A stretch of DNA of 47,517 bases from the IMG/VR virus record IMGVR_UViG_3300037316_000124, positions 1 through 47,517 of that record. One strand, written 5' to 3'. Made by a program: the position numbers and the translations under genes. Positions within the stretch are counted from its first letter, which is position 1, and every line of letters starts with the position of its first letter. This document shows, piece after piece, positions 11,170-41,516 of the stretch. Under the pieces are notes generated by a model. It ran no database searches. It was not told the origin of the DNA and was given only the letters and a program-made list of their open reading frames with translations. This DNA is from a virus.

Positions 11170-11345
11170 TATGACGGTCTCGCAGTCAAGTATCTCTGTA
11201 TGGCCAGCGTTGCCGCTTCGTGCAGTGCGAGCCCGTCAACGGCGCATTTGATTTTCAGCTGGCGATGCAGATCGGACGGAATCCGCACATTGACATGCTC
11301 CCTCTGCCCTTCTGCCTCCGACCGCTCAGTGATAGTCTGATTCAT
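11169..11345 (-). CDS. Ribbon-helix-helix DNA-binding protein
   Basis: A 58-residue protein with REHVNVRIPSDLHRQLKIKC (strand plus helix A) and ALHEAATLAIQRYL (helix B): the CopG/Arc-type fold, binding DNA as a dimer. It is the first gene behind the strong early promoter and is divergent from the plus-strand cluster. It could be the switch regulator, either autorepressing its promoter or acting as an antirepressor. Confidence 0.8.
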   Translation of the reverse strand: MNQTITERSEAEGQREHVNVRIPSDLHRQLKIKCAVDGLALHEAATLAIQRYLTARPS

Positions 11346-12411: not shown

Positions 12412-12469
12412 GTACCGGTACTTCCGGCCTTTCAAAACACCGTACACTGGCGCACACTGACCGTATGAA
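12412..12469 (+). promoter_or_regulatory. Regulatory module copy B
   Basis: GTACCGGTAC (12412-12421), again 26 bases, then the 22-base element (12448-12469) that ends on the start codons of the secreted-protein gene. The spacer sequence is unrelated to that of copy A, so the two outer elements and their distance have been conserved or recently duplicated. Confidence 0.6.
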
Positions 12470-15384: not shown

Positions 15385-18300
15385 TTATCTGGCCCCCGCA
15401 AACGTAATCGCCACATCCGCCAGGGTCGCGTCCGCGCTCGATGGCGCGATCACCTGCATCCGGTCGCCCGCCGCGAAAGTCTGCGCCGCCCCGCTTGTCG
15501 TTGTGAATGTCACGACGCCCCCGGTCGATACAACGACTGTCCCGATGGACGAGCCGTTTTGTTTGACCGTGTAAGTCGCTGTTGCCGTCGGGTTAACGCC
15601 CGCCGTGCCATGCGAGCCCCCGAAGTTTCCGGCGAACGAAACCGCGCGGTTGAAAGTCAGGATGAGGACCGTTTGCGCGGCGGCGGGAAGTCCCGTAAGC
15701 GAGCACACTACGTCATAGGGAGAGCCGGTATCAATGGACGGCCCGGTCGCGCCGATGACGCCGACCGATCCGCCTCCGCCGCCTCCGCCGGCCATCTGTT
15801 CCCAGAACGCGAGATAGCTTTCGACCTGAGAGGTATTGATGACCGTGACCGTGTACTGGTAATGGCCGCCCCCCGGCACGCCCGCCTGGTCCATGTAAGG
15901 CTGCGCCGGGACGATCTCCGCCGCCACTTCCTGGACTACGTAATCGCCGTCGATCTGCTGCGACATGGCGATGGCCGTGGGCGCCACGATGGAATAGGAA
16001 AGCCCGGAGAAGCCGCCCGGATTGCGCGAAGTTTCGACGACCGTGCCGCTGTCGAATACCGTAATCGGGAACGGCCCGGTATGGCCCGAAAGGGTCATCG
16101 GCTGGCCGACCATATCCGCCGTGAATAAATCGCCCGATACCCACTGAATCAGGTACGGGCCGCCGATGCCGCCGACGATGGTATTGACCACGCCCGTGAA
16201 GGTGCGCAGCGCCGCGAGATGAATCGTCAGCTGCTGGCCCGGCGCAATACCCGGCTTCCAGGCGATGAACGAGAACGAAACCGGGATGGTCGAATAGGCC
16301 GCCAGGATCGCCTGAACTTGCTGGAGTCCCAGCGTGTTCGATGTATTCGAGGTATCCGAAACAAGCTGCTGATATTTGCCCGTGCCGTTCTCGATGGCCG
16401 AACGCACAGCCACCTGCCCGGTGTCCTCGACCGCGATGACATCCCCCGCAGCGCGCTTGTACTGGATCTGGATATACCAGCCGGAGCCCGATGGCGTGGT
16501 CGGCAGGGAGGCGAGCGAGACTGAAATCTGGCCCGGGTTGTAATAGACGTTCGATGAATTCGAGGAACCGACCGAGGCCACGCCTAACAGCACCGTACCG
16601 CCCGATGTGGAGCCGCCCGTGGTTACCGCGCTCGACCATGACATAGCACTCCCGGTTGCCGTCAGCGCCGCCTTGTAATCCTGCCCCGCGTTCTTGTTTT
16701 TTACTTCGACCGCCGCTCCGCCGGCTATCTCCGCATTCACGAGCGGGTTTTCCCAGGTGGGCCAGGAATAGACATTGCCCACATAAAGCTGGTTCCGGTC
16801 CGCGTTGATCGCAACGCACAGATTGAAGGCGCAGTCGAAGGCCGTGAGACCGAGCAGCACCTGGCCCCATTCGCGATTGTCCAACGCATCGACGAAGGTG
16901 TAGATCGCAGCGCCGAGGCCGCCCGGTTCCGAGACGCCGAGATCCTGCCAGATGATCAGATGGTCCGTCGTCGTGCCGCCGGTATCGTTCCACACCGGCT
17001 GTGTCGATCCGCTGATATCGGTCACAGAGCCGCCGGGCGAATTGCCCACTGTGCATTTCTGGACGTGGTTCGCCGGATCGATAACGATCTGGCCCGTGTA
17101 GTAGGGCGCGTTCGGCTGCCAGTTGTAAATGCTTCCCGACTGCGGGTAAGAGACTGTTACCGTATCGCCCGGAGCCGGTATCCCGCTGAATGTCAGCGTG
17201 GCCGTGTTCTGCGTGTTCTTCGTGAGCCACGCGAAGGTGACGGACTCCACCGCCCGCAGCATAATGAACGTTGCCGGGAGCCCGGTGTACGGGAACAGTT
17301 CCGCGGACTGGCTAAAGGCATCAAGCGAGATTCTGACGGCCTGAAAGTTGCGGTAATCCTGCCGGTTCTGCTGCCAGGTGGCCGAACCATATAAGACCTG
17401 TTCGGCCATCACCGTGTAAGGCGAGGCCAGTACATTGGGCGCATGCAGATAAACGCTCAGTGTCGGTAAGTCGATGCCCCACACGCACTCCGCAAGCTGC
17501 GCAATCTGGTTGAAGAGATCCGATAACCGCTCCCAGTTGCAGGTGAATGTGTTGATGACGAACGGCGCAACGATGGAGCCTCCGACTATCGGCACGCCCT
17601 GCGCCACGGTCGAAAGCAGATCGAGAAAGATATCCTCCGCCGCGGTGTAGAAGTAAGTCCGCGGCGAAACCAGAAGCGCATCGTAGACCTGCTCAAATGA
17701 AACCGCGCTCAGTGTTACTATCCGGTCCCCGAGCGTGCCGAGCCACGAGATCGTCAGTTTATCCACCGTGCCCGCGAAGACGAGCACGGGGCCGGCAGGC
17801 GGCTGATCGTAGAGATAAACCTGCACTCCTTCGGTTGGCATGTACGGATCGCCGGCCGCGATATACATGGGGATTTCCGCCGTGCCCCTCGAACGCAGCG
17901 TCATCGTCCAGGAATGCTTCGACTGTCCGTCTCCGATATGCAGGTAGTTGGTGCGGTCGGTGTAGCCGAGGCCCTGCTCGTTGAGCATCAGCCAGGAGAA
18001 AGCCGGAGTCGTCGGGGAATATTGAAGTTTGAACGCGACGAGCGTGCATCCGAAATGCCAGACAGGAATCGAGACGCCGGATACGATGGCGAAGTTGATT
18101 GCCGCCGGATGCGCCAGCGTCAGGAGGAAATCGAACGAATGAACCGTAAGCAGCGGGCTGCCGCCGTATTCGCGCGGATAGTACGGGATGAACTGCCCGC
18201 CTACAAGGTTGAGCCCCGGCGCGCCAAGCGATCCGGCGAAGCCGTGAAGCTGTTCGAGATCGTAACCGGTCGTGATGTTGGCCGAGGCTTGATTAGGCGT

Positions 18301-18693
18301 GGCAACCGTAGCCGTCCCGTGCGTATCGACCGGCGAGGCATGCAGGATTCCGGCGTATTCGTGGAATGCCACAGCCATCGAATCCCATCCCGACGTTCCG
18401 GTGAAAGCCACGGTGATCGTGTCCGGCGCATAGGTCTGGACGATGTTCGGCGCATACCAGCACTCCCCGACGACCGATGAACCGAAGCTGTCCTGCGTGA
18501 TGCGGGTCCATGCGTTGCCGTCCGAATCGAACATCGATACGGCGCCCGAGGCTCCGGTGTGGAGCTTATAGGCCAGATCGACCACAAGCGTATTGCCCGG
18601 AGCGCAGGGATTCGGGAGCGCAAGCGTGATCGAAGTCAGGAAGCCGCCGAATGCGGCATCCTGTCCCGTCGATGCGCTCTGAACGTAAGCCAT
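15385..18693 (-). CDS. Tail tip/baseplate hub protein (large)
   Basis: A 1102-residue protein directly after the tape measure gene. Residues 1-~160 form a beta domain (GNTLVVDLAYKLHTG, DSDGNAWTRIT, DTITVAFTG) like lectin-like modules of bacterial surface proteins. Residues ~230-480 (HSWTMTLRSRG, VYLYDQPPAGPVLVFAGTVDKL) resemble hub proteins that cap the tail. The C-terminal third has fibronectin-like strands and a GGGGGGG linker. It probably closes the tail and contacts the host. No J-type motif is certain. Confidence 0.75.
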   Translation of the reverse strand: MAYVQSASTGQDAAFGGFLTSITLALPNPCAPGNTLVVDLAYKLHTGASGAVSMFDSDGNAWTRITQDSFGSSVVGECWYAPNIVQTYAPDTITVAFTGTSGWDSMAVAFHEYAGILHASPVDTHGTATVATPNQASANITTGYDLEQLHGFAGSLGAPGLNLVGGQFIPYYPREYGGSPLLTVHSFDFLLTLAHPAAINFAIVSGVSIPVWHFGCTLVAFKLQYSPTTPAFSWLMLNEQGLGYTDRTNYLHIGDGQSKHSWTMTLRSRGTAEIPMYIAAGDPYMPTEGVQVYLYDQPPAGPVLVFAGTVDKLTISWLGTLGDRIVTLSAVSFEQVYDALLVSPRTYFYTAAEDIFLDLLSTVAQGVPIVGGSIVAPFVINTFTCNWERLSDLFNQIAQLAECVWGIDLPTLSVYLHAPNVLASPYTVMAEQVLYGSATWQQNRQDYRNFQAVRISLDAFSQSAELFPYTGLPATFIMLRAVESVTFAWLTKNTQNTATLTFSGIPAPGDTVTVSYPQSGSIYNWQPNAPYYTGQIVIDPANHVQKCTVGNSPGGSVTDISGSTQPVWNDTGGTTTDHLIIWQDLGVSEPGGLGAAIYTFVDALDNREWGQVLLGLTAFDCAFNLCVAINADRNQLYVGNVYSWPTWENPLVNAEIAGGAAVEVKNKNAGQDYKAALTATGSAMSWSSAVTTGGSTSGGTVLLGVASVGSSNSSNVYYNPGQISVSLASLPTTPSGSGWYIQIQYKRAAGDVIAVEDTGQVAVRSAIENGTGKYQQLVSDTSNTSNTLGLQQVQAILAAYSTIPVSFSFIAWKPGIAPGQQLTIHLAALRTFTGVVNTIVGGIGGPYLIQWVSGDLFTADMVGQPMTLSGHTGPFPITVFDSGTVVETSRNPGGFSGLSYSIVAPTAIAMSQQIDGDYVVQEVAAEIVPAQPYMDQAGVPGGGHYQYTVTVINTSQVESYLAFWEQMAGGGGGGGSVGVIGATGPSIDTGSPYDVVCSLTGLPAAAQTVLILTFNRAVSFAGNFGGSHGTAGVNPTATATYTVKQNGSSIGTVVVSTGGVVTFTTTSGAAQTFAAGDRMQVIAPSSADATLADVAITFAGAR

Positions 18694-18696
18694 GCC

Positions 18697-21600
18697 TTAT
18701 CGCGATGCCGGGGAATAACCAGGCCATGTGGACTTCAAAAGCGCCGGGATCTGGCGCACGAGGTCGCGCGCGTTCTGGACCCCGTAAACGTGAAACGTAT
18801 TGTTCATGCTGCTCGTCTGCGAGCTGATCGATGAAGACACGGCAGGCATATCGAGGCCCGCGCCGCCGAATTTGCCCGCCGCGACGATCTGGCCCGCCTG
18901 ATCGGGGATAAACAGTTCCGGCCCCTTTTCCCCGACGATCGAAGCCACGCCGACCGGAGGTCTTCCGCCCGAGGCGAAACCAAACAGACCGGCGAGCCCA
19001 TTCAGGGGCGACAGAGGGCTGGTCGAAACGATATTGACATCGACCGGCTTCGACGATCCGCCGAATCCGAGGATCGATGCCAGGAAGCCGAACATGCCAT
19101 CCTGCGACGCACCGCCGGAGGCGGGGAGGGCCGTGGCTGCCGGCGCCGGAACTCCCGAAGTAACCGGGCCGCCGGTTCCCGACACGGTTCCGTGCAGCGC
19201 CTGTACCGCCGCCGTGGTCCCGTGGATGGCAGTGACTATCTGCCGGTCGCCGATTAACGACATGACGCCCGAGATGACGCCGCCGATGATGCCCCCGGCC
19301 GCCGCGATCAGAGGGCCGACGAGACCCGTTGCCGCGGATGATGCCGCGCCGCCTGCCGCACCGGCCGCGCCGCCAGCCGCGCCTGCTATCCCTCCGCCTG
19401 CTCCTGCCGCCCCGCCGGCTGCGCTCAGCGCCGCCGCCGCCTGCTGCTTGATCAGCAGCCCGTTAAGGATGACGAGCTGCGCGGTGTTGAGCGACACGGC
19501 CGTTGTCTGAGTACTCCCGAACCAGGTGAATATCGCTCCCAGAACGGTATGGGCGGCAATTTCTTTAACGATCTCCCCAATCAATTCCCTGAAGATCGTG
19601 CCGGCCAGCTGCTGGCCGACGTTCTTCAGGGAATCGGTGATCTGCTTGCCGATGTCCATCCCCTGCTTGCCGGAATTGAACAGGCCGCCAGCCACGGCTC
19701 CGCCGATGGCTCCGGGAACCGCTTCGCCCGCCTTGACGAAAGCGGCTTTCAGTTTGTACTCGAGCGTCTGTTTCTGGATCAGTTCAAGGATCTTCGTCTG
19801 GGCGGCAATCTGGGCGTTATCGGATTTGGCCGTCTCTTCGGCAATCTGGTTTACCAGCCGCGCAACTTCTTCTTTGGCCGCAATCTGCTTTTCGGTGCCG
19901 CCCGCAGCCAGCACATCGACCTGAGCCAGCCTTAACTGTTCGTTTAAATCGGTGATCTTTGCCGCGCGTTCGCGGGCGTCGAATGCCGCGAGCTGCTGTG
20001 CATAGGCGACCTGCTGCGCTCCCGTATGAATAACCTGAAGGCCATAAGCCTGTTCTGCCTGGAGCTTCTGTTTTTCGATTGCCGCCGAATCCGCCGGACC
20101 TTTGCCTTTGGCCTGGACTTCGGCGACACGCTGCGCCGCCAGAACCGCATAAGCGCCCGGTGCGTTCTCCTCTTCAAAAGTGTGCTGGGCGTCCTTCCGG
20201 ATTGCCGCGAACGCCTTCTCCCACTCGCGCGTAACCTGTTCAGCCCAACCGCGCTGGGCTTCGACTCCCTTGATCCCGGTATCGCCCTCGGCTTTCGCCA
20301 GATCGGAATCCAGTTTTTGCCGCTCCGCCGCGTACTTCGCATCGGCAGCCTGTTTGAGTCCGGCGATGGTGGTCTGCACCTCGGCAGCAGCAGCAGCAGC
20401 TCTGGTCGGGTCCTGGTCCGCTTCGTACTTTCCGGCGAGTTCGGGGCCGATCCGCTGGCTCAGCAGTTGTATTGCGCGGTCGTGCTGCGCCTTGTCGATG
20501 GCTCCGATCTGTTCGGCTTTCTCTTTCTCTACCCGGACACGCTCTGCAGCCGATGCAACAGCCCGCGTCCCGGCATCCGTATTGGCGTCGATCTCAGCCC
20601 GCCGGACCTGGTGGTCCAGTTCGATCTGAGTGTTCGCAGCCGCCCTTGCCAGTTCCGATGTCTGTTCGTTTTCACGCTCCGCATTGGCAATCCGGGCGAG
20701 CGTATTGGCGGCCTGCTCTTTGGCGTGGAGCTTCGCGGCCACGCCCTGCGCATCGAAAACGGCTTTGGCCGCGCCGATCGGCCCGAAGCCGGAGCCCTCT
20801 TCGGGAAGCACGCCAAGAGGAGCCGCCGCCTTTGGCTGCGATGCGCGGGACACTTCCTCGTAGCTTTTGCCATGACTGGCGGCTTCAATCAGGTTTTTCA
20901 GGGAATCGACACCTGCTTTATTGCTGAACGTGTCTCTGAGAAAATTGCCCGTGGTCTGGGCGAACCGCTCCATAAAACCGATGGCCGGCGCGGAGTTCTC
21001 TCCGATTTCGGCGAACAATTCGTGGAACGTATTTTTGACAACGATCCAGGCGCCGGAAATGGTTCCCGCTCCGGCTGCAGCCGTTCCCTTGAACTTTTCG
21101 AGCGCCACCGTGAGAGCGGCGATGCGGTCTTCTTCCGGAAGAGCTTTGAATACGCCTTTTAATTCCTGTTCGCTCACGCCCAGTGCGCGCGCCAGGTCTT
21201 CGGAAGAGAGCCCGAGCTCCCGCAGCATTCGCGGCATTGCCATGCCCGACAGAGCAAGTCCCGCCATGCGCGCTGAAACAACCTCGATGCTTTCGCCGAG
21301 CGCCCAGGAAGCATTACCCGCCGCCGCCATCGCAGGCACGACCTGATTGATGGAGAAACCCATCGCAATCATGCGCTGCGCGGCGGGAAGAAGCTGCGGG
21401 AATGCCAGCGCCTGCGACGTGGCGAGCGCTTCCATCTGCTCCACGACTTCGTTTGTCTTCTCCGCGCTGCCGGTAAGGGCGGTCAGTGTAACGGTCAGCT
21501 TCTGGACTTCGGCATAGACGCCGAACGCCTCCTTTACCGCTTCAAGCGCGCCTAACGTGATGCCCAGTTCCGTCGCCAGCTCAAACGCTTTTTCGCCGAG

Positions 21601-22011
21601 AGCGGCATAGGCGCTTTTCGCTTCGCCGGCAACTCTGCCGGATTCTTTGGTAGCCGCAGCCAGCGCCATGTTTCGCTGGATGCTGAGCGAGAGTGCGGCA
21701 TTCTCGTTGCCGATAGCCTGAATGAGACGGTCTATATCGGCGCTGAAAGACTTCGTCTGGCCGGCCAGGGCCGCGAACGGCACTGCAGCGGATTGCGCGG
21801 CGGCTCCGGATTCCTTGATCGCCAGGCCGAACTTTTCGACTGCTCCGGATGCGCCTGCGACTGCCGGGGCCATGCCCGCCGTCAGCCCGGTCGCGATCCC
21901 AGCCCCGGCCCTCGTGGCCAGCGCCTGCGCCGCCAGGAAGTCGGCCTGCAGCTTCGAGTAATCCCCGCTGATGATGATGCCGACGCCGCCTATGGTGATG
22001 TCGCTTGCCAT
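18697..22011 (-). CDS. Tape measure protein
   Basis: A 1104-residue protein that sets tail length and is ejected with the DNA. The N-terminus (SDITIGGVGIIISGDYSKLQ) and first ~400 residues are helical with TMP-type MAxMGFS segments. A long coiled coil follows (~430-780, rich in A/E/K/Q). Near ~800-990 there are hydrophobic and Gly/Ala-rich membrane-active segments (GLVGPLIAAAGGIIGGVISG). At about 0.15 nm per residue the tail would be near 165 nm, typical of a siphovirus. It lies between the G/GT and tail-tip genes. Confidence 0.92.
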   Translation of the reverse strand: MASDITIGGVGIIISGDYSKLQADFLAAQALATRAGAGIATGLTAGMAPAVAGASGAVEKFGLAIKESGAAAQSAAVPFAALAGQTKSFSADIDRLIQAIGNENAALSLSIQRNMALAAATKESGRVAGEAKSAYAALGEKAFELATELGITLGALEAVKEAFGVYAEVQKLTVTLTALTGSAEKTNEVVEQMEALATSQALAFPQLLPAAQRMIAMGFSINQVVPAMAAAGNASWALGESIEVVSARMAGLALSGMAMPRMLRELGLSSEDLARALGVSEQELKGVFKALPEEDRIAALTVALEKFKGTAAAGAGTISGAWIVVKNTFHELFAEIGENSAPAIGFMERFAQTTGNFLRDTFSNKAGVDSLKNLIEAASHGKSYEEVSRASQPKAAAPLGVLPEEGSGFGPIGAAKAVFDAQGVAAKLHAKEQAANTLARIANAERENEQTSELARAAANTQIELDHQVRRAEIDANTDAGTRAVASAAERVRVEKEKAEQIGAIDKAQHDRAIQLLSQRIGPELAGKYEADQDPTRAAAAAAEVQTTIAGLKQAADAKYAAERQKLDSDLAKAEGDTGIKGVEAQRGWAEQVTREWEKAFAAIRKDAQHTFEEENAPGAYAVLAAQRVAEVQAKGKGPADSAAIEKQKLQAEQAYGLQVIHTGAQQVAYAQQLAAFDARERAAKITDLNEQLRLAQVDVLAAGGTEKQIAAKEEVARLVNQIAEETAKSDNAQIAAQTKILELIQKQTLEYKLKAAFVKAGEAVPGAIGGAVAGGLFNSGKQGMDIGKQITDSLKNVGQQLAGTIFRELIGEIVKEIAAHTVLGAIFTWFGSTQTTAVSLNTAQLVILNGLLIKQQAAAALSAAGGAAGAGGGIAGAAGGAAGAAGGAASSAATGLVGPLIAAAGGIIGGVISGVMSLIGDRQIVTAIHGTTAAVQALHGTVSGTGGPVTSGVPAPAATALPASGGASQDGMFGFLASILGFGGSSKPVDVNIVSTSPLSPLNGLAGLFGFASGGRPPVGVASIVGEKGPELFIPDQAGQIVAAGKFGGAGLDMPAVSSSISSQTSSMNNTFHVYGVQNARDLVRQIPALLKSTWPGYSPASR

Positions 22012-22732: not shown

Positions 22733-23203
22733 TCAGACCAGGCTCGGCCCGCCCGTGTTGGCGGTCAGCTCTATGGTCGCGTCGAAAGTGCCCGCCACCT
22801 TGCCCGTGATCTGGAAGCCCGTGACATAAGCCGAGAAGGCGTCGGTCGAGTTGTTGCCGTCGGGATAGATCACCTGCCAGTCGCGCAGCAGCTGATTGAT
22901 CCACAGATAGCGCAGCCCGACGGCCACGGCCCCGCCGCCCGCCTGGTTGCGGTGCGTCGGCTCTTCCATCACCCAGAAGACCTTCAACGTGATTTTGCCA
23001 AAGCTCAGCAGCGTGGGAATCATGCGTTCCCACTTGTCGCCCACATTGGTAATGTCGGTCGTCTTCGATGTCATGGGCAGCGTGAAATCGCTCACGTTGC
23101 AGATGGTGAAAAAGGCATCGGGCGAGGTGCCGGAATTGGAGACCTGCAGCAGCAGCCCTTCCACCGCAATCGCGGCGGCAATACTTGAAGTGGAACCTGG
23201 CAT
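22733..23203 (-). CDS. Major tail tube protein
   Basis: A 156-residue beta-rich protein: GLLLQVSNSGTSPDAFFTI, VSDFTLPMTSKTTDITNVGDKWERMIPTL and FSAYVTGFQITGKVAGTFDATIEL are typical of siphovirus tube subunits that polymerise around the tape measure. A strong AGGGAGG ribosome site precedes the ATG. It lies between the tail terminator and G. Confidence 0.88.
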   Translation of the reverse strand: MPGSTSSIAAAIAVEGLLLQVSNSGTSPDAFFTICNVSDFTLPMTSKTTDITNVGDKWERMIPTLLSFGKITLKVFWVMEEPTHRNQAGGGAVAVGLRYLWINQLLRDWQVIYPDGNNSTDAFSAYVTGFQITGKVAGTFDATIELTANTGGPSLV

Positions 23204-23648: not shown

Positions 23649-23830
23649 GGGTCGATGACCTCCGCGAATTCCCCTTCGGCATAGAAGCCGCGGCCGTCGC
23701 CCTCGATGAACGTGCGGCCCTGCCAGACGATCCGGCGCGGTGCCTCTTGCTTCGCGCGCGGCGGGAGAATCAACTCGCCCACCTGCCGGTTGGCCCAGTC
23801 GAACAGTTTCACCGGGCGCGGATCTCCCAT
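23645..23830 (-). CDS. Small neck-region protein
   Basis: A 61-residue beta-rich protein (VGELILPPRAKQEAPRRIVWQGRTF, then GFYAEGEFAEV). The ATG at 23830 shares a base with the preceding stop (TGATG). It sits between the head-closure and tail-terminator genes, so a structural role at the neck is likely. Confidence 0.6.
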   Translation of the reverse strand: MGDPRPVKLFDWANRQVGELILPPRAKQEAPRRIVWQGRTFIEGDGRGFYAEGEFAEVIDP

Positions 23831-24234
23831 CACAGGCTCGCAAGCTGCAGCTCCATCCGGGTCTGCGTTCGCTGGGAGTCGGCTTCGGCCCCGAGAATGT
23901 CGTACGCCGTGCCGTCGATCAGGACCCGCCAGCCCTGCCGCCAGCCGGCGATCACTGCGGGGTAATAGCCGTTCAGCGCCACATGGCGCAGCCCTTTGGC
24001 CAGGATGTCGGCCACGCTTCTTTCCTCGAGAGCCCGGATAAACATCATCGAACTCGGCGCGTCCATGCACGGGATATTCACAAGCCCGTCCACGGGCGTG
24101 TAAGCGCCGCTCGGCTCACCCGTCGGCCCCTGCGTTCCGTCCGGCTGCTGGAAGGTGGCGAGCGAGCGGTAGAGGCCGGTAGCCGCAGCCTGCGGCATGA
24201 CCTGGGAGATTTCGGACTGGAGGGACTGGTTCAT
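23830..24234 (-). CDS. Head closure/head-tail joining protein (putative)
   Basis: A 134-residue protein. SLATFQQPDGTQGPTGEPSGAY and the final GWRVLIDGTAYDILGAEADSQRTQTRMEL resemble SPP1 gp16-type stopper proteins (small beta barrel seen in neck proteins). The start at 24234 removes an arginine-rich shadow extension. Confidence 0.65.
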   Translation of the reverse strand: MNQSLQSEISQVMPQAAATGLYRSLATFQQPDGTQGPTGEPSGAYTPVDGLVNIPCMDAPSSMMFIRALEERSVADILAKGLRHVALNGYYPAVIAGWRQGWRVLIDGTAYDILGAEADSQRTQTRMELQLASL

Positions 24235-24239
24235 TTGCG

Positions 24240-25244
24240 CTACGGGCCGACCACGACGTAGTTCACGCCCACAGTCAGCGTGCCGTCTCCGCCCGAATAT
24301 CCCTGGATCGAATTGACGTTGATCTGTAAGCCGCCGCCGAGCGCAGTGGTGTTGACGGTCAGCCCGGTACCCATCCCGCTTATGGCCGTTGTGGTCATCC
24401 CGGTCGCGGCGGCGCATGTGCCGCCCACGCGAGTGAGAGCCAGGGCGGTCACAGACCCTGCAGTGGCTGTAACGGTCAGGACGCTGGCGCTGCATCCGTC
24501 GGCTGAAACCGTGTCGCCTGTGACATAGCCGGAACCCGGCGCATTGACGACTGCGGTTCTGAGTCCCCTGTCGTTTGAGGTCGAGCTGATACTGTCGGGA
24601 ACAAAAGTCAGGGCCGGACCGACGGCATAATCGGCGCCCTGCGAAGTCAGGTGATAGGTTGCGACCACGCCGGATGCTGCGGTATCGACAACGCCGGCAG
24701 CAAAGACTGCACCGCCGCTGTTGTTGACGGTGAAAACGTCTCCCGCCTGAAATCCCGTGCCTCCCGCAGCCAGCGATGAACCGCTGACCCGCCCGCAGAC
24801 GGAATTTACGACAATCGGCTGATTGTCATAAGACGAAGTCTGGCCGCCGAGCACCTGGGCAGCCAATACCTGGCCACCGATCAGCGGCGTCAATGAGGTC
24901 AGCGATCCAAAATTGGAACCGATAAGCGGAGATAAAACGATTCCAAGAAACCCGAACTGCAAACCGCAGTCGCCGTACGCTGTGAAAGCCGTCGTGCCGG
25001 GATTGTAGAACATGTAACTTCCCGTGGGATCGATCACCTTGCCGGCGCCCGGCGCGGGAATTATCGTTACCGGGGCGTTGGTCGTGCTGTTCAACTGTGC
25101 GGCGCTGACGACGGTGCGGCTGGTGATTACTACGCCTGCGGGGAGCGCGCCGCCGGATGGAGGCTGATACTGGGCCAGCAGGCAGTGCGCGGTCTGCGCC
25201 GAAAGCAGGAGAATCGAAAACGAGAATGCAAAAGGCAGTTTCAT
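24240..25244 (-). CDS. Exported fibre-like protein with signal peptide (3)
   Basis: A 334-residue protein. Residues 1-~24 are a Sec signal (KLPFAFSFSILLLSAQTAHC), followed by LAQYQPPSGGALPAG and a long, repetitive beta region rich in G, T, V and A (GTGFQAGDVFTVNNSGG, VNAPGSGYVTGDTVSADG) like bacterial adhesin or phage fibre repeats. It overlaps its neighbour by one codon (TAATG). It lies in the head-tail operon between connector and neck genes. How a signal peptide fits a virion protein is unexplained. Confidence 0.65.
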   Translation of the reverse strand: MKLPFAFSFSILLLSAQTAHCLLAQYQPPSGGALPAGVVITSRTVVSAAQLNSTTNAPVTIIPAPGAGKVIDPTGSYMFYNPGTTAFTAYGDCGLQFGFLGIVLSPLIGSNFGSLTSLTPLIGGQVLAAQVLGGQTSSYDNQPIVVNSVCGRVSGSSLAAGGTGFQAGDVFTVNNSGGAVFAAGVVDTAASGVVATYHLTSQGADYAVGPALTFVPDSISSTSNDRGLRTAVVNAPGSGYVTGDTVSADGCSASVLTVTATAGSVTALALTRVGGTCAAATGMTTTAISGMGTGLTVNTTALGGGLQINVNSIQGYSGGDGTLTVGVNYVVVGP

Positions 25245-26782
25245 TAGTAACCAAGGCAGCCGAAACTGACCACATCCCCGCTCAGAGCGCCTGTGGGAAT
25301 ATTGATCGACGCTGTGGTGGTCGTGCTTGCGGATTGATCGACCAGAGCCGTCAGCAGCGACCGGTCGCTTCCCCAGCACGACCAGCCCGTAGGTGCCGTG
25401 GCTGTATTCCCCATCGTGACAACAACGGTTCCGGGACCGTTGGCTCCAAGAGCGAAGGTTCCTGCCGTGGCCCCGCCGACGAGGGTTCCGACCGACAGGC
25501 CGGTTGCGGTGAATGTTGTTCCACCGGATATCAGAGCCGAGGCTTTCAATGCCCGGTAGTTGGCAGCGGTTGTTCCCGGCGCTCCGGACTGCACGCCAAG
25601 CACGCCTGCCGCGTCGCGGTCGAGCGTTACATCTCCAGTCTGGATTGACCCGGCGAATCCGGAGCCCCACATCAGGCCGGTCACGTTCGACAGCACCATT
25701 CCGTTAACGTTGAAATTTTCTCTTGCCGAGTAGTTGCTGAATACGCCGAATGTGCCTGCGGCATTGACTGGTCCGAACCCGTTTCCGCCGCCGTTACCTG
25801 GGCCGTTACCGTTACAGTCGCCGGCTGCGGGCGTAGATGCGGTGCCATCCAGAATGATCGTCGCTCCAACCGTATTCACGTTTACCCCGCAAAAGTGCGG
25901 GGCCGTCTGCGCCGTGCCGTTTACAGTGGGTATAAACGCGAGTGTGACTGCCGGTGTCGTCGTGCTCTGGTTCGGCTGGGCAAACACATCCCACTTGACG
26001 GTCTGGCTGGCTGCCGTTGCCGTGGTCTTCCAGCCCTGTCCGATCAGTTCGACAGGCGGGGAGTATTGCTGCGCTCCGGCTGCCGCCGCCGTGGTGTTCT
26101 GGGCGATGTAACCTCCTGCCGGGGTTGTTCCCAGTGCGCTGTTGGTCAGGGTGTTGCTCGTAGTCGTGACAAGGGTCACAATCGTCGGGCTGGTCGAGAG
26201 CGCCGGATTCCCCGTTCCGGTCGGCGTCGAGGCCACCGCGTTGCCCGCCCCGTCGCCCAGCAGGACCGTGGTTGTGCTGGCGATGGTGCCCCCTGCCGCC
26301 GGCAGAACCCCCAGATCGACCGGCGCCGATCCTGCCCCGCCCCACCCCATGACATGATTGACGGTTCCAGCGGCGCTGGATGCCCATGTGGAAGCGCTTG
26401 AAAAATAGGGAATGCCGCCGCTGGTCCCGGCTACCGTGAAGGCGGGCGTGGTGGTCGGCGTGGCAACCGACAGCAGTCCCCCGGTAAAACCGGCGCTGGT
26501 GACTGTGCCCGGTCCCTTCGCGTTGATCTGAGTCTGGATGGAACTGGTGGCATCGAGAAACCCGAACGTCGCGGGAGAAACTCCGTCCACCGTTTTGCCG
26601 GTCAGCGTTGCTGGTATATCTCCATTGACCAGCGCTACGCCGGGGTTGGGATACGTTCCGCTTAACGAACCGCCGGCGGCTCCCGACGGAGCGCCACCGC
26701 CACCACCGCCGCCCGAGGGGGGGTGATACTGCGCCGGCAGGCAGGCAGCCGAAAGCAGCGCAACTAAGACGCAGTGCCTCAT
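25244..26782 (-). CDS. Exported tail-fibre-like protein with signal peptide (2)
   Basis: A 512-residue protein. A short signal (MRHCVLVALLSAACLPAQ) precedes QYHPPSGG, a glycine run and GSLSGTYPNPGVALVNGD. The LSGTYPNP motif is common in phage fibres and exported repeats. It continues as a T/A/G-rich beta structure (LLGDGAGNAVASTPTGTGNPALS) and ends GWSCWGSDRSLLTALVDQS, a possible receptor-binding tip. Its ATGA overlap with the upstream gene shows co-translation. Confidence 0.7.
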   Translation of the reverse strand: MRHCVLVALLSAACLPAQYHPPSGGGGGGGAPSGAAGGSLSGTYPNPGVALVNGDIPATLTGKTVDGVSPATFGFLDATSSIQTQINAKGPGTVTSAGFTGGLLSVATPTTTPAFTVAGTSGGIPYFSSASTWASSAAGTVNHVMGWGGAGSAPVDLGVLPAAGGTIASTTTVLLGDGAGNAVASTPTGTGNPALSTSPTIVTLVTTTSNTLTNSALGTTPAGGYIAQNTTAAAAGAQQYSPPVELIGQGWKTTATAASQTVKWDVFAQPNQSTTTPAVTLAFIPTVNGTAQTAPHFCGVNVNTVGATIILDGTASTPAAGDCNGNGPGNGGGNGFGPVNAAGTFGVFSNYSARENFNVNGMVLSNVTGLMWGSGFAGSIQTGDVTLDRDAAGVLGVQSGAPGTTAANYRALKASALISGGTTFTATGLSVGTLVGGATAGTFALGANGPGTVVVTMGNTATAPTGWSCWGSDRSLLTALVDQSASTTTTASINIPTGALSGDVVSFGCLGY

Positions 26783-27147
26783 TTGGCCCAGCTCACGTCG
26801 ATCTTGTCGCCCGAGGCGATCCACACATAGATCTGCGCCGTCGAATAGCCCGGCTGTCCGCTCGGCAGCACCGGCAGCATATAGCCCCCGCCTGGCGGTA
26901 TCGGTATGCCCCGGGTCGCGCTCACGTTCGCATCCCCCACGCGAGGGCAGGCCGTGATATCGGCGGCGACACAGTGCGTGGCGGAGTTGCTCAGAGGCGC
27001 GACGAACTGAATCCAGCGGGCCACTTCGGTGGCGTTCAGCTGCACAGCAACGCCCGTGCCGCTGATCTCGGCGGGTGAGGTAATGCGCGTCTGCGCAGCC
27101 AGCAGCACTGCGATTGCGAGGAGGAAGAGTACCCGTTTCAGCGTCAT
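26779..27147 (-). CDS. Exported protein with signal peptide (1)
   Basis: A 122-residue protein. Residues 1-~19 (TLKRVLFLLAIAVLLAAQ) are a clear signal peptide. The mature part is beta-rich with two cysteines (HCVAADITACPR) that could form a disulphide, and ends QIYVWIASGDKIDVSWAK. The first of three adjacent genes with signal peptides. It overlaps both neighbours by 4 bases, so it is not a stray insertion. Confidence 0.7.
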   Translation of the reverse strand: MTLKRVLFLLAIAVLLAAQTRITSPAEISGTGVAVQLNATEVARWIQFVAPLSNSATHCVAADITACPRVGDANVSATRGIPIPPGGGYMLPVLPSGQPGYSTAQIYVWIASGDKIDVSWAK

Positions 27148-27401
27148 AAAGTAACTCCCGCCTGCACCGCCTTCGGCATCGCGGCGAGCAGCGCGCGTGC
27201 CGTTTCAAGGCCCATCAGATAACCCGCCAGCATGCGGTCGGCGGAATCCTCCGAAGCCCGCGCCGCTTCGGTGCAGATCTCCGCGAGGCGGGCCGGGCCG
27301 AGCGAGCGGAATTCCTTCGCCTCTCTTGCGAGCATCGCCGAATCGCGGGTGCGCAACATGTCCATAGCCATCTCGATAAACATCACGCCGGGGATTGTCA
27401 C
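27144..27401 (-). CDS. Small helical protein next to the connector
   Basis: An 85-residue alpha-helical protein (REAKEFRSLGPARLAEICTEAARASED, YLMGLETARALLAAMPKAV). It overlaps both neighbours by 4 bases. Position suggests a head-tail or assembly accessory. No family recognised. Confidence 0.55.
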   Translation of the reverse strand: MTIPGVMFIEMAMDMLRTRDSAMLAREAKEFRSLGPARLAEICTEAARASEDSADRMLAGYLMGLETARALLAAMPKAVQAGVTL

Positions 27402-27871
27402 AGGACCGCCGCCTGCCGCTGAACCTGGCGAAAGAACCGGTCGCGAAAAGAGAAAGTGTCCGAGACGGTCTCGATCACGACGAAGGCCCCGGAGTTCTCG
27501 TCGAGGTCGATATAGCTCTGCGCCGTCTCGCGGAGCTGAATGGCAGCATCGGACGAGTCCAGCTTCACGTCGAGGATCTGCTTGATCGAAGCGAGGCGCG
27601 CCTTGTTCGACGCGAGCGAGAACAGCATGGCTGCCGCGATCCGGTAGTAATTCGTTGGCGAGTTGGGCAGCGTGGCGATGCCGCCTGTGCCGCCGTAGAA
27701 CTGGGAGGACTGCCAGACATTCGATGTGATAGCGCTGAATGCCTGTATCTCGGCGTCGTGAAAGACAAAAATCGGGGTAATGCCGTCGGGCCCGAACTGC
27801 TGGGTATCGGCGATCAAAACCCTGGGGAAATCGATTGGGGGATTAGATCCAAACCCATAGCTGAAAGACAT
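27398..27871 (-). CDS. Head-tail connector (adaptor)-like protein
   Basis: A 157-residue protein; YYRIAAAMLFSLASNKARLASIKQILDVKLDSSDAAIQLRETAQSYI shows the helix bundle of gp6-type adaptors that seat below the portal. It should follow the capsid gene; here a homing endonuclease gene on the other strand has come between them. Confidence 0.7.
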   Translation of the reverse strand: MSFSYGFGSNPPIDFPRVLIADTQQFGPDGITPIFVFHDAEIQAFSAITSNVWQSSQFYGGTGGIATLPNSPTNYYRIAAAMLFSLASNKARLASIKQILDVKLDSSDAAIQLRETAQSYIDLDENSGAFVVIETVSDTFSFRDRFFRQVQRQAAVL

Positions 27872-27904
27872 ACTAGGATGCCTCCAGCGCGGTAAAATAG
27901 AAGC

Positions 27905-27965: not shown

Positions 27966-29030
27966 ATGGCTACGGGCAATTATAAGCGTCCGCTTCTCGA
28001 CAGGTTCACCGAAAAACTGATTGTCTTGCCCGACACCGGCTGCTGGCTCTGGACCGGGGCCGTTGGAAATCACGGCTACGGAGCGCTGTGGGATCAGGAC
28101 CGGAAGAAGGTTCGCCTCGCTCACCACATCGCCTGGGAGTTGCATATAGGCGCGATCCCGCAAGGTTGCGTCATCGATCACATCTGCCGCGTCCGAAGAT
28201 GCGTCAACCCCGCCCACCTTGAGCCGGTGACGCTGGTCGAAAATGGCAGGCGCACACTTGTTCGCGGCGTTCTGGCAGCGCAGCCCAACGTCCCGGTTTA
28301 TAAACTGCCTGCGATTCCCGCTGGCGTTCGATTCCGCGGGAAAAACGTTTGGAGGCACGGTTCGCTGCTCGACCGGTTCATGCGCCAGGTTTCCCCGGAA
28401 CCGTTCAGTGGGTGCTGGCTGTTCAGTGGCTTCACGGTTCGCGGTTACGGAATAACTACGGACCAGTATCGGCGGTCGAGGCAAGCCCACTGCGTTAGCT
28501 ACGAACTCTTCATAGGACCGATCCCCGAAGGTCTCGACCTTGACCACCTTTGCCGTGTCCGGTGCTGCGTGAATCCCCGGCACCTGGAAGCCGTTACCCG
28601 TGGCGAGAATCTGCGACGCGGAATAAAAGCGGGATTCGGCAGTCTTGTCGGATCGCACAAGGCCGCTGAAATGCAGCGCGCCAAGACTCATTGCAAGCGC
28701 GGACACGAGTACACACACGAAAACACCCGGATTTATCGCGGCAAGCGCCATTGCAGGAAATGTCATGTGATCGGGGTGTTGGCGAGTCATCGTCGAAAAC
28801 ATCCGGAGACGCCTGAAGTATTGGCAAAACGAAAAATCAGAAGGACTGAGTGCCAGGCGATAGCAACCAGAGCGGCCAACGCCAGCGCGCGATCCAAGAC
28901 GCACTGCAAACGCGGCCATGAGTTCAGTGAAGAGAACACGCGCTGGCGCAACGGGAAACGCCAGTGTCGACGATGCGCTCGCTACACCGCTAAACAACGT
29001 CGCAGACATAGCGCAACAGGGACCAGCTAA
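27966..29030 (+). CDS. Homing endonuclease with duplicated HNH and zinc modules
   Basis: A 354-residue protein, opposite in strand to all neighbours. Two HNH_3-type cores are seen: residues ~26-95 (CWLWTG, then IDHICRVRRCVNPAHLE) and ~150-218 (CWLFSG, then LDHLCRVRCCVNPRHLE). Two zinc modules follow: ~240-266 and ~311-337 (both KTHCKRGHE, then CRxC). An excellent GGAAAGGAG ribosome site supports ATG 27966. Its 3' end overlaps the capsid gene end by 4 bases. Likely a selfish mobile gene that cuts phages lacking it at this locus. Confidence 0.85.
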   Translation: MATGNYKRPLLDRFTEKLIVLPDTGCWLWTGAVGNHGYGALWDQDRKKVRLAHHIAWELHIGAIPQGCVIDHICRVRRCVNPAHLEPVTLVENGRRTLVRGVLAAQPNVPVYKLPAIPAGVRFRGKNVWRHGSLLDRFMRQVSPEPFSGCWLFSGFTVRGYGITTDQYRRSRQAHCVSYELFIGPIPEGLDLDHLCRVRCCVNPRHLEAVTRGENLRRGIKAGFGSLVGSHKAAEMQRAKTHCKRGHEYTHENTRIYRGKRHCRKCHVIGVLASHRRKHPETPEVLAKRKIRRTECQAIATRAANASARSKTHCKRGHEFSEENTRWRNGKRQCRRCARYTAKQRRRHSATGTS

Positions 29031-30310
29031 GTCCCTTGTCCTGTGCTACTTACAGTAGCCTTGCCATCCAGCTGTATGCCCCCAAAACACATCAACGCTT
29101 TAAATTCCGTGCTCATCGACCGGAAGTCGCCCAGCGTCGGCTCCACGCCCCCGCCCACGCGCATCGTGTTCGGCACTTTCTCGTAAAGCTGCGGTGTGTC
29201 AAAGCCCCTTAAATCGCCCACTTCGATCGCGGGCCGCCCCTGGCTCGACGGGTCGGCGAAGATATACCACTGGGTCAGCTTCGTGCCCGCCGTCGTGGTG
29301 ACGATCGGCAGGTATGGGTCCATGATCACGGTGAGGTTGCCGATGATCCAGTTGTCCACCCGCACCTTCTGCGCATTGAACATCGTCTGCGTGGCGCCGG
29401 AACCGGATAACTGAGTGGTGCCGCCCGCCACGTTCACGTCGACCGACAGCTGGTGCATGACGTTCTGCGCGGTCACATAGAGCGAAGGCCCGACCGCCAG
29501 AAACAGCTTGCCGGGGATCTCGATCGGATCGCCGCCGGTATCCACCTGGTTCATAAGCACGGTCATGGCGTCCGAGAGCGCGGCCACGCTGAAGGCGGGG
29601 TTGTTCGACGCCGCTCCGTTGGCGGTGATGATCTGGTTGTGATTGCCCGAGGTGTAAAGCAGGGTGTTCGGGCCGGTAGCGCTCGAATAAAGGCCCGTGA
29701 TGAACTTGTGTTTGGTGCGCCGCGCGCCGCGGGCCAGCCGCTGCGAGAGGTCGCGGAAGATGCCCAGATCGTCGTTGATGACGGCTTCCCACGAAATCCT
29801 GGCGCCCTTCTCGTACTTCAATGGCGCGTAGGTAATCGGGGTCCGCTGGCTCAGATCGCCGAGCGGCAGGTCCTGCAGTTCGGCCACCGACGAGAACGGC
29901 GTTTCGAGGCCGTCCATGATGAAGAGTTTCTTCGATCGGAAATCGTTCAGCGTGGCCGATTTAACGATGGGCATGATGGGGATCGGCACTTCCGTGTAAT
30001 CGCCCAGCAGCTCGCGGTCGAGCACATCCACGGTCAGCGCGTTGAAATCCGAGGTGGTCATCGTTTCGCGGAAGACCATCGGATATTTATGGCAGAGCAG
30101 ATCGAACGCCCCGCCCTCGGTCGGGTTGAACGCCTGCCGCATGTAGAAGGGGTCGAGCCGCCCTTCGCGGAAGTCGGCCCAGATTTCGGCCGCCCCGAGT
30201 ACGCGGGCCTGATGGCGCGCGCCTGCCTGCCGCGTGACGGCGTTAAAGCCCGGCACATCGACGGCACTGCCCGTGATCGGAGATCCTGTATAAAGGTCGT
30301 TTTCAGTCAT
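29027..30310 (-). CDS. Major capsid protein (HK97 fold)
   Basis: A 427-residue protein. The N-terminal ~60 residues are a scaffold-like arm. KSATLNDFRSKKLFIMDGLE, KYEKGARISWEAVINDDLGIFRDLSQRLARGARR and FITGLYSSATGPNTLLYTSG resemble Mu gpT-type major head subunits. Near the C-terminus is RVDNWIIGNLTVIMDPYL, then YIFADPSSQGRPAIEVGDLRG. A strong ribosome site and its location after cement and protease genes support the call. Confidence 0.92.
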   Translation of the reverse strand: MTENDLYTGSPITGSAVDVPGFNAVTRQAGARHQARVLGAAEIWADFREGRLDPFYMRQAFNPTEGGAFDLLCHKYPMVFRETMTTSDFNALTVDVLDRELLGDYTEVPIPIMPIVKSATLNDFRSKKLFIMDGLETPFSSVAELQDLPLGDLSQRTPITYAPLKYEKGARISWEAVINDDLGIFRDLSQRLARGARRTKHKFITGLYSSATGPNTLLYTSGNHNQIITANGAASNNPAFSVAALSDAMTVLMNQVDTGGDPIEIPGKLFLAVGPSLYVTAQNVMHQLSVDVNVAGGTTQLSGSGATQTMFNAQKVRVDNWIIGNLTVIMDPYLPIVTTTAGTKLTQWYIFADPSSQGRPAIEVGDLRGFDTPQLYEKVPNTMRVGGGVEPTLGDFRSMSTEFKALMCFGGIQLDGKATVSSTGQGT

Positions 30311-30763: not shown

Positions 30764-31037
30764 CGAATTTCACCTCTTTGGGTTTCGCGGTCTTCGCGCC
30801 CGGAGCGGTCGGCACCGGCTGCGATTTCGGCGCGGGCGGGTCCTGGACTTCTGCCTTGACCACCTGCCGGGTATTGAGATTCAGCAGCGTCGTGGTCGTG
30901 TTCTCGGGCGGCATCGGGTGCTCGAGATCGATTGCGACGTTATGGTATTCGTCGGTGGGCGCAAGGCCCGTGACGACGCCGGGGATCACCACCCGGTCGC
31001 CGATCTGCAGCTTCGTGCCGTGCTTGTCGTGCGCCAT
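30753..31037 (-). CDS. Small head-region protein
   Basis: A 94-residue protein: an SH3-like beta start (LQIGDRVVIPGVVTGLAP, VAIDLEHPMPP) and a disordered Pro/Lys/Ala tail. The tail overlaps the cement gene by 11 bases. Likely a minor head protein or an accessory of unknown role. Confidence 0.6.
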   Translation of the reverse strand: MAHDKHGTKLQIGDRVVIPGVVTGLAPTDEYHNVAIDLEHPMPPENTTTTLLNLNTRQVVKAEVQDPPAPKSQPVPTAPGAKTAKPKEVKFDGD

Positions 31038-32209
31038 TACGCGGCCCTTCCTTTCACGGCAGCCTTCGCGGCGGATTCCGAGAGGCCGAGACGCCTGAAG
31101 ATTTCGACCGAGCGCGCGTTGATTTCTTCGGGCTTCAGGGTTTCTTTGACCTCGACCGGAGCGGCCACGCCCATACCGGTGACGCGACCCGCGTGGGTCA
31201 GGCCGGCCACATAGGCGCCTTCGCGTTTGGCTTCGGCAGCGACGGCTTCGGCAAATTTCACGGTGTCGAGTTCGCCCGCTGCCGTGACCGGAATGGCCTC
31301 GCGCAGCACGCTTTCGATCACGCGCTGCTTCGATGCTTCGGGCAGGGTGACCGACGCCAGCGCACGGGCGGCTTCGATCAGGGCGTCGCCGCGCAGGGCG
31401 CGCTGTTTCAGCGGTCCCACTGCGGCAGCCACAGCATCGGTTACCGCTTTGGCCGAGGCCGCCTCGACCAGCTTCTGAACTTCTTCGGTGGTCATCTGTG
31501 TCTCCTGTAGAGTTGCGGCGCCCGCCGCGGATTCGGTGAGGATCATTCCGCCTGCGCCCGCCCGTGTCACCACGTCCACGGATTCGGCAGAGGTAAGAGC
31601 TTTGAGAATGGGCAGGCCGTCGCGCTTCGTGCCGGATTCGGCCATGCCGCTGGCGCGGATGGACATACCGACGTGCGCGGCTTTTTCCTCGACCATCTGG
31701 CCGTGATCGGCGAACACCTTCATGCGCCCGTAGAGGCCGGGGCCTTTGGCGTGCGTTTCGTGATAGACGGCATTCGTGGTGAGCACGCCCGCGAGGTTCT
31801 TGACATCGCCCTCGGGCCTTGCCGCTTCCTCTGCCGCAGTGGCGTGATTTAAGTAGACGTGTGTCCCGGCGACAAACGTCTTCGGCCCGTCGCGCTTCAG
31901 CACTTCAGCCGGATAGAACGCGCTGGAGCCCTTGCCGGGAGCGATGAGTTTTATCTCGTAGTCGGCCTTCGCTTCGCGGATCACGATGGCTTCAAGCGGG
32001 GTAGCCGACTCGAACAGCTTCAGCTCCAGGGCTTCGCCCGCGGATGCAGTCCGGGCCGCTTCGCTCGATTCGGTTGCCGCGTCCGGGTCCGCCGCCGCAC
32101 AGGTCGCGCCCATGGCGCAGGCGTGATCGTGGATGGCCTGGAGCTTCTGCAGATCGGCTTTGGAGTTGCGCGCGCCTGCCTCGGTTACAACTACTTCCGC
32201 TTCGGGCAT
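31037..32209 (-). CDS. Prohead protease with scaffold-like tail
   Basis: A 390-residue protein. The N-terminal ~230 residues form a phage serine-protease domain with YLNHATAAEEA (H122) and HVGMSIRASG (S183), then SAESVDVVTRAGAGG, as in Mu/Bcep-type head proteases. From ~235 onward it is an Ala/Glu/Lys coil (EEVQKLVEAASAKAVTDAV) typical of an internal scaffold released by cleavage. It shares a base with the next gene. Confidence 0.85.
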   Translation of the reverse strand: MPEAEVVVTEAGARNSKADLQKLQAIHDHACAMGATCAAADPDAATESSEAARTASAGEALELKLFESATPLEAIVIREAKADYEIKLIAPGKGSSAFYPAEVLKRDGPKTFVAGTHVYLNHATAAEEAARPEGDVKNLAGVLTTNAVYHETHAKGPGLYGRMKVFADHGQMVEEKAAHVGMSIRASGMAESGTKRDGLPILKALTSAESVDVVTRAGAGGMILTESAAGAATLQETQMTTEEVQKLVEAASAKAVTDAVAAAVGPLKQRALRGDALIEAARALASVTLPEASKQRVIESVLREAIPVTAAGELDTVKFAEAVAAEAKREGAYVAGLTHAGRVTGMGVAAPVEVKETLKPEEINARSVEIFRRLGLSESAAKAAVKGRAA

Positions 32210-33946: not shown

Positions 33947-34816
33947 CTATGGCAGCACGATACTCAGCGAGCAGTTGCAGCGCGGATGCCCGGGCGGAGC
34001 TTCATCTAACGATGGGAAGAATTCATCTATCCCGATAGGGCCAGCCTCCTCGTTCGGGATACAAATTTCCTCGCACGCTTCCCCGTCCGTAGCCCACTCC
34101 TTCATCACGCCGGGGCCAGGGATCTCCTTCGCCGAACTCAGGATCGCCTGGTTGTAGGCGTCCGCGATCTCCGTCTGGGCGATGGTCTCGGCCCGGAAGT
34201 CCGTCGCCTCATTGAACGCGCCCTTGATCGCCTTCACGGCATCCCCGTAGCTCCCGCCCTCGGCATAAGTATCGGCCACGGCGTCGGCGATGCGCGTCTT
34301 CGTCGTCTCGTCCACGTCGGCCGCCAGCCGTTTAAACCCGCTGTCACGAAGGTAAGTCATGGCGAAGCGGTTGCCCGCGTTCTTCGCCGCATCGATGCCG
34401 GTCTGCACGGCCAGCGTCTCGATGGCCCCCTGCGCGGCGATTTCCACGATGGCGTCATAGGCCGCCGAGTCCTCGTGGGTGACGCCCGAATCGAGCACCG
34501 CCCCGGCGGCGATCTGCTGGGCTACCGTAGCCTGGAGCTTCCGGCGCAGGTCGTCCGGGGTGGCGTCGGCTTCGGAATAGCCCTCGCTGAGGGAATACTG
34601 CGCCGCCATGTGCTTCAGCCACGGGCGGGCGTGGCGCAGGAACAGGATGCGCTGGCGGGTGAACCGCCGCCGCCACAGTCTGCGCAGCTTCTCACGGAGC
34701 GGGGCTACGGTCGGGGAGTGCGGCGGGGCATGCAGGGATTCGCACAGCGCGCGGGCGAGGCTGTTGGCGGCCTGGACGAGTTCAGCTTCGGGCGTCATGC
34801 TTCTATCCTGCGCCAA
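33947..34816 (-). CDS. Mu gpF-like minor head protein
   Basis: A 289-residue head morphogenesis protein. The C-terminal half has the Phage_Mu_F signature: ETIAQTEIADAYNQAIL, then WATDGEACEEICIPNEEAGPI and GHPRCNCSLSIVL, with its conserved Cys/His cluster. The N-terminal helices (RFTRQRILFLRHARPWLKHM) are basic. It lies after the portal gene as expected for a SPP1 gp7-type minor head protein. Confidence 0.88.
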   Translation of the reverse strand: MAQDRSMTPEAELVQAANSLARALCESLHAPPHSPTVAPLREKLRRLWRRRFTRQRILFLRHARPWLKHMAAQYSLSEGYSEADATPDDLRRKLQATVAQQIAAGAVLDSGVTHEDSAAYDAIVEIAAQGAIETLAVQTGIDAAKNAGNRFAMTYLRDSGFKRLAADVDETTKTRIADAVADTYAEGGSYGDAVKAIKGAFNEATDFRAETIAQTEIADAYNQAILSSAKEIPGPGVMKEWATDGEACEEICIPNEEAGPIGIDEFFPSLDEAPPGHPRCNCSLSIVLP

Positions 34817-41417: not shown

Positions 41418-41419
41418 TT

Positions 41420-41480
41420 GGTGGCTCTCCTAAGCCGAGGATGAGCCACCGTAGGAGCGATGGCCCTTCGGTCCTCATCC
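41420..41480 (-). promoter_or_regulatory. Structured leader covering the start region of the GIY-YIG-like gene
   Basis: GGTGGCTC (41420-41427) pairs with GAGCCACC (41443-41450), ending 2 bases before the GTG. The AGGAG ribosome site lies in and next to its loop. GGATGAG (41439-41445), partly inside this stem, could instead pair with CTCATCC (41474-41480) and free the site. A TAAAAT (41513-41508) upstream may be the -10 of a promoter. Two exclusive folds suggest translational control. Confidence 0.5.
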
Positions 41481-41516
41481 GATGCGGGTAATTAGTCCGC
41501 GAAGATCATTTTACAC

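Follow-up and report, generated by a model that had tools for sequence, protein, structure and literature searches.

Predicted export leaders on an accessory block of probable fibre-type proteins encoded inside a phage structural operon

Introduction

Why would a tailed phage encode proteins with export leaders among the genes for its own virion? The question is raised by the IMG/VR record of a soil phage (47,517 bases, GC content ~62%), referred to in its entirety as the window, in which three consecutive, translationally coupled minus-strand genes, S1, S2, and S3, separate a connector gene from a neck gene. The original prediction offered two readings: either the products are exported factors made late in infection, or the phage captured exported host repeats and retained their leaders.

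Exported accessory proteins of phages are already known. Lambda Lom, an outer-membrane beta-barrel, is an exported accessory moron protein encoded inside the tail-gene region; S1–S3 resemble it as predicted exported accessory proteins among tail and structural genes, and differ from it in being fibre-type and translationally coupled to late genes. T5 Llp is an exported lipoprotein that blocks the receptor during infection. S1–S3 are likened to Llp-type proteins only in their proposed receptor-blocking role, and they have no lipobox, the predicted cleavage exposing Gln rather than Cys. Phage proteins obeying the Q-rule are likewise known, from genes with signal peptides in the P. gingivalis phages of the proposed Nixviridae (PMC10367356). 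There, as in S1–S3, an N-terminal Gln is predicted to be exposed, which fits the export habit of the host; unlike S1–S3, these are five genes of unknown function in phages of Bacteroidota, and they are not described as fibres or as a block within a structural operon (PMC10367356).

Results

Three coupled genes with Sec-type leaders lie within the structural operon

The surroundings of S1–S3 were assigned by PHROG and Pfam matches together with synteny, several genes from position alone. The structural operon runs along the minus strand from the portal (35898-37862) through a head-morphogenesis gene (33947-34816), a protease (31037-32209), the major capsid protein (29027-30310), and a 378-aa protein to the connector-type gene (27398..27871), whose function is assigned by position only. 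A small 85-aa gene (27144..27401) coupled to S1 follows, then S1–S3, after which come the neck-type gene (23830..24234), a tail-completion-type gene, the major tail protein (22733-23203), a TAC-like gene, and the tape measure (18697-22011). Next are a leaderless 1102-aa tail protein (15385..18693) with a tail-fibre-like C-terminus (PHROG 7049 tail fiber, E=7e-13, residues 985-1097) and a further tail protein (14417-15382). The window phage thus has a fibre besides S1–S3. A tyrosine integrase is encoded at 5658-6746.

Two other regions of the window are worth recording. An opposite-strand 254-aa gene (12465-13229, plus strand) has a leader-like N-terminus (MKRFAAALITAVLVSGSGMA↓GEPK; here and below, the arrow marks the predicted cleavage), which makes it a further candidate exported protein; it gave no PHROG or NCBIfam match. 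A minus-strand cluster at 40614-47059 contains GIY-YIG-like (T5orf172), glycosyltransferase-like, and FkbM-type methyltransferase genes and two DNA methylase genes.

A check of open reading frames and N-termini, with leaders called by an n/h/c-region heuristic and by eye, agreed with the predicted positions, frames, and Sec-type leaders of all three genes. S1 (26779..27147, 122 aa) comprises a leader of ~18 aa (MTLKRVLFLLAIAVLLAA↓QTRIT, 27094..27147) and a mature part of ~104 aa with a cysteine pair (C59, C67). S2 (25244..26782, 512 aa) comprises a leader (MRHCVLVALLSAACLPA↓QYHPPSGG, 26732..26782), a Gly-rich linker, a GAAGGxLSGTYPNP fibre module, repeats, and a Cys-containing C-terminal domain. 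S3 (24240..25244, 334 aa) comprises a leader (MKLPFAFSFSILLLSAQTAHCLLA↓QYQPPSGG, 25173..25244), the QYQPPSGG linker, and GxGYxxGD-type repeats; a second possible cleavage site, LSA↓QTAHC, follows its residue 16. The claim that two of the three share a mature start was correct, the common form in S2 and S3 being QY[H/Q]PPSGG. By the heuristic and by eye, each leader has the features expected for Sec and signal peptidase I: a charged n-region, a hydrophobic h-region, a small-x-Ala site, and Gln at +1. Shuffled N-termini yielded an A↓Q leader in 3.7% (S1), 0.4% (S2), and 5.5% (S3) of trials, and the same crude test found A↓Q leaders in only 1 of 196 ORFs of the phages related by capsid protein; given these low rates, the A↓Q leaders of S1–S3 are beyond chance. 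No virion-anchoring N-terminal domain was recognised after any of the three leaders.

Overlaps of 1-4 bases with all neighbours had been proposed. They are present as a 4-nt ATGA between the 85-aa gene and S1 and between S1 and S2, and as a 1-nt overlap (TAATG) between S2 and S3, but S3 is separated from the neck-type gene by a 5-nt gap, the next ATG lying at 24234. The frames of S2 and S3 are open upstream (TTG 27208 and GTG 25670, respectively), but starts there would reach hundreds of bases into the gene before. No promoter-like site was found in window positions 23800-27900, and terminator-like matches were at chance level; S1–S3 were accordingly not grouped with the autonomous morons of the classical type.

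The leaders look real and match an acidobacterial host type

Predicted cleavage of the A↓Q type was seen in 11 of the 22 leader-like ORFs in 200 kb of plasmid segments from Granulicella (Acidobacteriota) and in none of the 11 in 100 kb of Sinorhizobium pSymB, percentages that are rough because the heuristic misplaces some cleavage sites. By a rough count, secreted proteins of the Granulicella tundricola plasmids (L087-L090) seem often to be Ala↓Gln-cut, like those following the Bacteroidetes Q-rule. The habit of placing Q at +1 has been described for Bacteroidota, in a text that does not mention acidobacteria (PMC5837995).

Even cysteine counts occurred in 21 of 25 mature A↓Q proteins (non-redundant, with cysteine) and in 140 of 317 ORFs that lack a leader (Fisher p=9e-5), a comparison that used a crude gene caller, whose leaderless class includes spurious ORFs and in which S3 scored odd. 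The mature proteins have two cysteines in S1, four in S2, and, in S3, four if cut at LLA↓QYQ or five if cut at LSA↓QTAHC. Such even counts would be fitting for disulfides formed outside the cytoplasm. On leader form, A↓Q type, and cysteine parity, the leaders of S1–S3 look real and host-matched.

The host genome of the window phage was not found in two genome-collection scans. The host is probably a member of the Acidobacteriota, judging from the A↓Q type and from a module that S2 shares with a protein of a phage cultured on an acidobacterium (see below), and a Bacteroidota host is less likely given the GC content.

S1–S3 are absent from close relatives of the window phage

Twelve viral contigs encode a capsid protein 64-78% identical to that of the window (77% in the closest phages). 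In all seven that cover the junction (L002, L005, L007, L008, L009, L010, and L011), the connector gene is followed directly by the neck gene, and S1, S2, S3, and the 85-aa gene are absent from this place. In six of them (all except L010), the connector-type gene is syntenic and 39-47% identical, and the adjoining neck-type gene is 34-52% identical. The predicted position of the block between connector and neck genes is therefore supported by synteny in relatives, the neck profile match itself being weak (Pfam Phage_HCP, E=0.025). Since the block is present in the window phage and missing at the same place in the closest phages, it is an accessory insertion, to which the 85-aa gene, also absent from relatives, probably belongs.

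L005 encodes a leader-bearing homologue of S1 (53% identical) between the head-morphogenesis region and the protease. The homologue is paired with a divergently oriented gene, P0005 (...SMSA↓QFTPPTFGG), which likewise bears a leader and after it encodes little beyond a tail-tip domain (Pfam K1-lyase_C, PF24146, E=6e-6). Against eight relatives whose backbone is 87-94% identical, L005 2483-3309 is a clean ~0.8 kb insertion containing essentially only these two genes. P0005 thus has its tip domain in common with K1-lyase_C tail spikes and fibres, and P0005-type proteins carry leaders; S1–S3 gave no match to this domain.

Leader-bearing fibre genes recur in other phages

Direct searches with S1, S2, and S3 in IMG/VR, phage, and plasmid collections returned nothing or one weak match, PDB sequence searches gave chance-level matches only, and AlphaFold2 models of S1 (pLDDT 48) and S3 (pLDDT 32) were too poor for a fold search. 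PHROG and Pfam profile searches found no fibre family match for S1 or S3. By blastp, mature S2 matched L072 (64% over 105 aa, E=1.5e-10), Tunturi 1 gp13 (61% over 49 aa, E=1.2e-8), L094 (33% over 129 aa, E=3e-6), and L079 (E=2e-5), and all four matches are leader-bearing and fibre-type; P0002 gave no match to the L094 record, although blastp of mature S2 finds it. S3 residues 144-270 weakly match a virion structural protein of cyanophage P-TIM40 (29%, E=4e-3), and residues 250-305 are 46% identical to a 1726-aa ORF in G031. For S1, hhalign (E=2.5e-5, prob 75%) gave a leaderless relative, L077:3521-3913, which immediately precedes a spike gene that has a leader; the two-cysteine loop of S1 falls in a gap of this alignment.

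Several candidates were discarded. An S1 motif scan hit, besides L005, one unrelated contig outside any S1-like gene, which was rejected as chance, and weak A1 matches in G007 and G009 were rejected, there being no S1-like ORF. Four of the five matches of an S2 C-terminal motif scan lay outside long reading frames; that in L094 is real.

The tip domain of P0005 occurs at 34 IMG/VR viral loci, some from near-identical contigs, mostly as the terminal part of longer proteins that resemble fibres or spikes. In ~28 of the 34, the gene encoding it opens with a leader, mostly of A↓Q type and in a few cases less clear-cut (for example, MKKLLWIFLLAAPLGA↓Q, MKRILAILALLASASAFA↓Q, and MRKFVLFLATFLVVLPALASA↓Q). 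Among the remaining loci, L067 has an ordinary leaderless N-terminus, frames are cut at contig ends in L074, L078, and L082, and L083 is not clear-cut. A short leaderless tip frame in L077 (5953-6261), just downstream of the leader-bearing spike gene, looks like a remnant or frameshifted end. Runs of such genes are present in several contigs. Eight consecutive genes with leader-like N-termini occupy L086 4805-12189 (IMGVR_UViG_3300025941_000040); one gene in that run (10908-11342) has collagen-like GPKGDKGDTGATG repeats. Leader genes share a contig with a capsid gene in L079 (PHROG 1357, E=7.5e-31) and with a portal gene in L058 (PHROG 156, E=1e-75).

The repeats of the leader-bearing fibre modules are also found in leaderless fibres adjoining the capsid gene of relatives, at 86-100% identity over 35 aa and 47-57% over ~180-265 aa. 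The leader-bearing and leaderless versions of these modules look as if a virion-attachment N-terminus had been swapped for a leader. The second of the original readings, capture of exported host repeats, is not supported by these observations: the modules are phage fibre modules, their repeats occur in leaderless fibres beside a capsid gene, and S1 has a leaderless phage relative.

Two cultured acidobacterial phages carry runs of leader-bearing genes

Tunturi 1-5 are the first phages isolated on acidobacteria (PMC11924767). Tunturi 1 and 2 (PP887698 and PP885685) are podoviruses with a known acidobacterial host, Tunturiibacter. Five of the six consecutive genes after the Tunturi 1 tail gene gp11 are leader-bearing (gp12, gp13, gp14, gp16, and gp17), four with A↓Q, and the run gp12-gp17 (L117 10371-23028) spans 12.7 kb, about a fifth of the genome. 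Tunturi 2 has the same arrangement. Like S1–S3, gp12-gp17 of both phages form a run of leader-bearing fibre-type genes inside a structural operon, and Tunturi 1 gp13 shares its 49-aa module (61%) with S2; they differ from the window phage in being podoviruses, in the make-up of the operon, and in that no large tailspike without a leader was seen (for Tunturi 2, in 40 kb). Deposited names among their leader-bearing proteins include "tail spike", "tail fiber", and "virion structural"; in Tunturi 2, gp13 is named tail fiber protein, gp14 pectin lyase, and gp17 virion structural protein. Tunturi 1 gp17 has CHB_HEX_C_1 and Fn3_assoc domains and a weak beta-helix match. Every large fibre-like ORF found by composition in Tunturi 1 and 2 (40 kb for the latter) has a leader-like N-terminus, and leaderless fibre-like ORFs number many in Tunturi 3 and one in Tunturi 4 (first 50 kb of each). 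The main text describing these phages does not mention signal peptides (PMC11924767).

In summary, many further soil phages, as well as two acidobacterial phages in culture, share the pairing of leader and fibre. In the open-licence literature, we found no description of a widespread leader-bearing fibre-type class inside structural operons with gene runs and cultured members.

Discussion

We propose that S1–S3 form an accessory cassette, acquired laterally, whose fibre-type products would be sent out of the cytoplasm. They would be made late, together with the structural operon, by translational coupling, as suggested by the ATGA and TAATG overlaps and the lack of a promoter-like site. Host Sec would export them and signal peptidase I would cut after A, exposing Q, a step suggested by the leaders themselves and by their likeness to those of proteins that acidobacteria secrete. 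The mature proteins would then form disulfides and assemble outside the cytoplasm, as even cysteine counts and fibre modules suggest. Late in infection they would most likely attach, from the outside, to a surface glycan or receptor of the host itself. Such masking or decoy activity would spare released progeny from loss to debris or already infected cells.

Judging from sequence, S1–S3 are very probably exported and processed. That they act outside the cytoplasm as accessory fibre-type proteins, rather than as fixed virion parts, is the reading towards which we lean; it is favoured by their accessory status, by the separate leaderless tail fibre in the window, and by the existence of the modules with and without leaders. 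Receptor masking as their specific role, drawn from domain type and location, is a tentative suggestion. The original prediction is upheld in part: the leaders appear genuine and of the host's type, S2 at least resembles a fibre, and both the even cysteine counts and the accessory block would suit exported late factors.

Beyond the two original readings there is a third, that processed, exported fibres join virions at lysis, and it is kept as a candidate because the combination of leader and fibre is common in one phage group that includes cultured acidobacterial podoviruses. S1–S3 and their leader-bearing counterparts would then be true tail or head fibres of the virion: export, cleavage, and disulfide bonding would take them through the periplasm at the time when capsids form in the cytoplasm. 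Nearly all fibre-like ORFs of Tunturi 1 and 2 and of G043 are leader-bearing, no leaderless large tailspike was seen in the two Tunturi phages, depositors named three Tunturi proteins tail spike, tail fiber, and virion structural protein, and leader genes directly follow large structural-type ORFs in several contigs or are close to a capsid gene (L079) or a portal gene (L058). In vitro, P22 heads accept added tailspikes, which makes attachment at a late stage chemically possible. However, both the window phage and L005 encode separate fibres without leaders, relatives can dispense with the cassette, and no virion-anchoring domain is recognised after the leader; we also know of no tailed phage that assembles fibres via the periplasm and joins them at lysis. 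For S1–S3, we consider this route unlikely while giving it real weight. The general proposal that some acidobacterial tailed phages make receptor-binding fibres through host Sec, with periplasmic processing and disulfides, and join them to DNA-filled particles at lysis seems to us slightly less likely again. Since every large fibre-like ORF found in Tunturi 1 and 2 has a leader, the virions of these two phages may themselves use the leader-bearing proteins to bind the receptor. Sec-routed virion fibres would be categorically new.

The predicted export, fibre-like character, and accessory status of S1–S3 could also suit lysogenic conversion, in which adhesins or surface proteins benefit the host of a temperate phage, and the window does encode a tyrosine integrase (5658-6746). 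Yet the genes are embedded and coupled in a late structural operon with no promoter-like site, and long runs of such genes are carried by Tunturi 1 and 2, which form clear plaques, integrase or recombinase genes being annotated only in Tunturi 3-5 (PMC11924767); we regard this explanation as improbable. More doubtful still is that the leaders go unused, as hydrophobic anchors or as N-termini trimmed during cytoplasmic assembly. In P. gingivalis phages, some capsid proteins do begin with signal-peptide-like sequences that the prohead protease is believed to remove (PMC10367356), but the presence of n-, h-, and c-regions, an A↓Q site of the host's type, and the even mature cysteine counts speak against it here, making it very unlikely. 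A single metagenomic contig could conceivably be an assembly chimera or contain host genes spliced into phage sequence; this was rejected as scarcely credible, since start and stop codons overlap within the operon and dozens of contigs, together with two cultured phages, show the same arrangement.

Leader-bearing fibre-type proteins in phages bear on how phage genes are recognised. Absence of a signal peptide has been taken to support the phage origin of hypervariable binding proteins (PMC6199706), and its presence as a mark of host surface proteins; a phage group with cultured members breaks this rule. The A↓Q leader type may also be of use in linking soil phages to hosts among the acidobacteria. 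Two alternatives present themselves for the phage group: large-scale export of surface-binding proteins, or the building of fibres outside the cytoplasm. As cultured, plaque-forming phages, Tunturi 1 and 2 make the question answerable, and the findings suggest that fibre proteins may leave the cell by a route not thought to be used by the proteins of phage particles.
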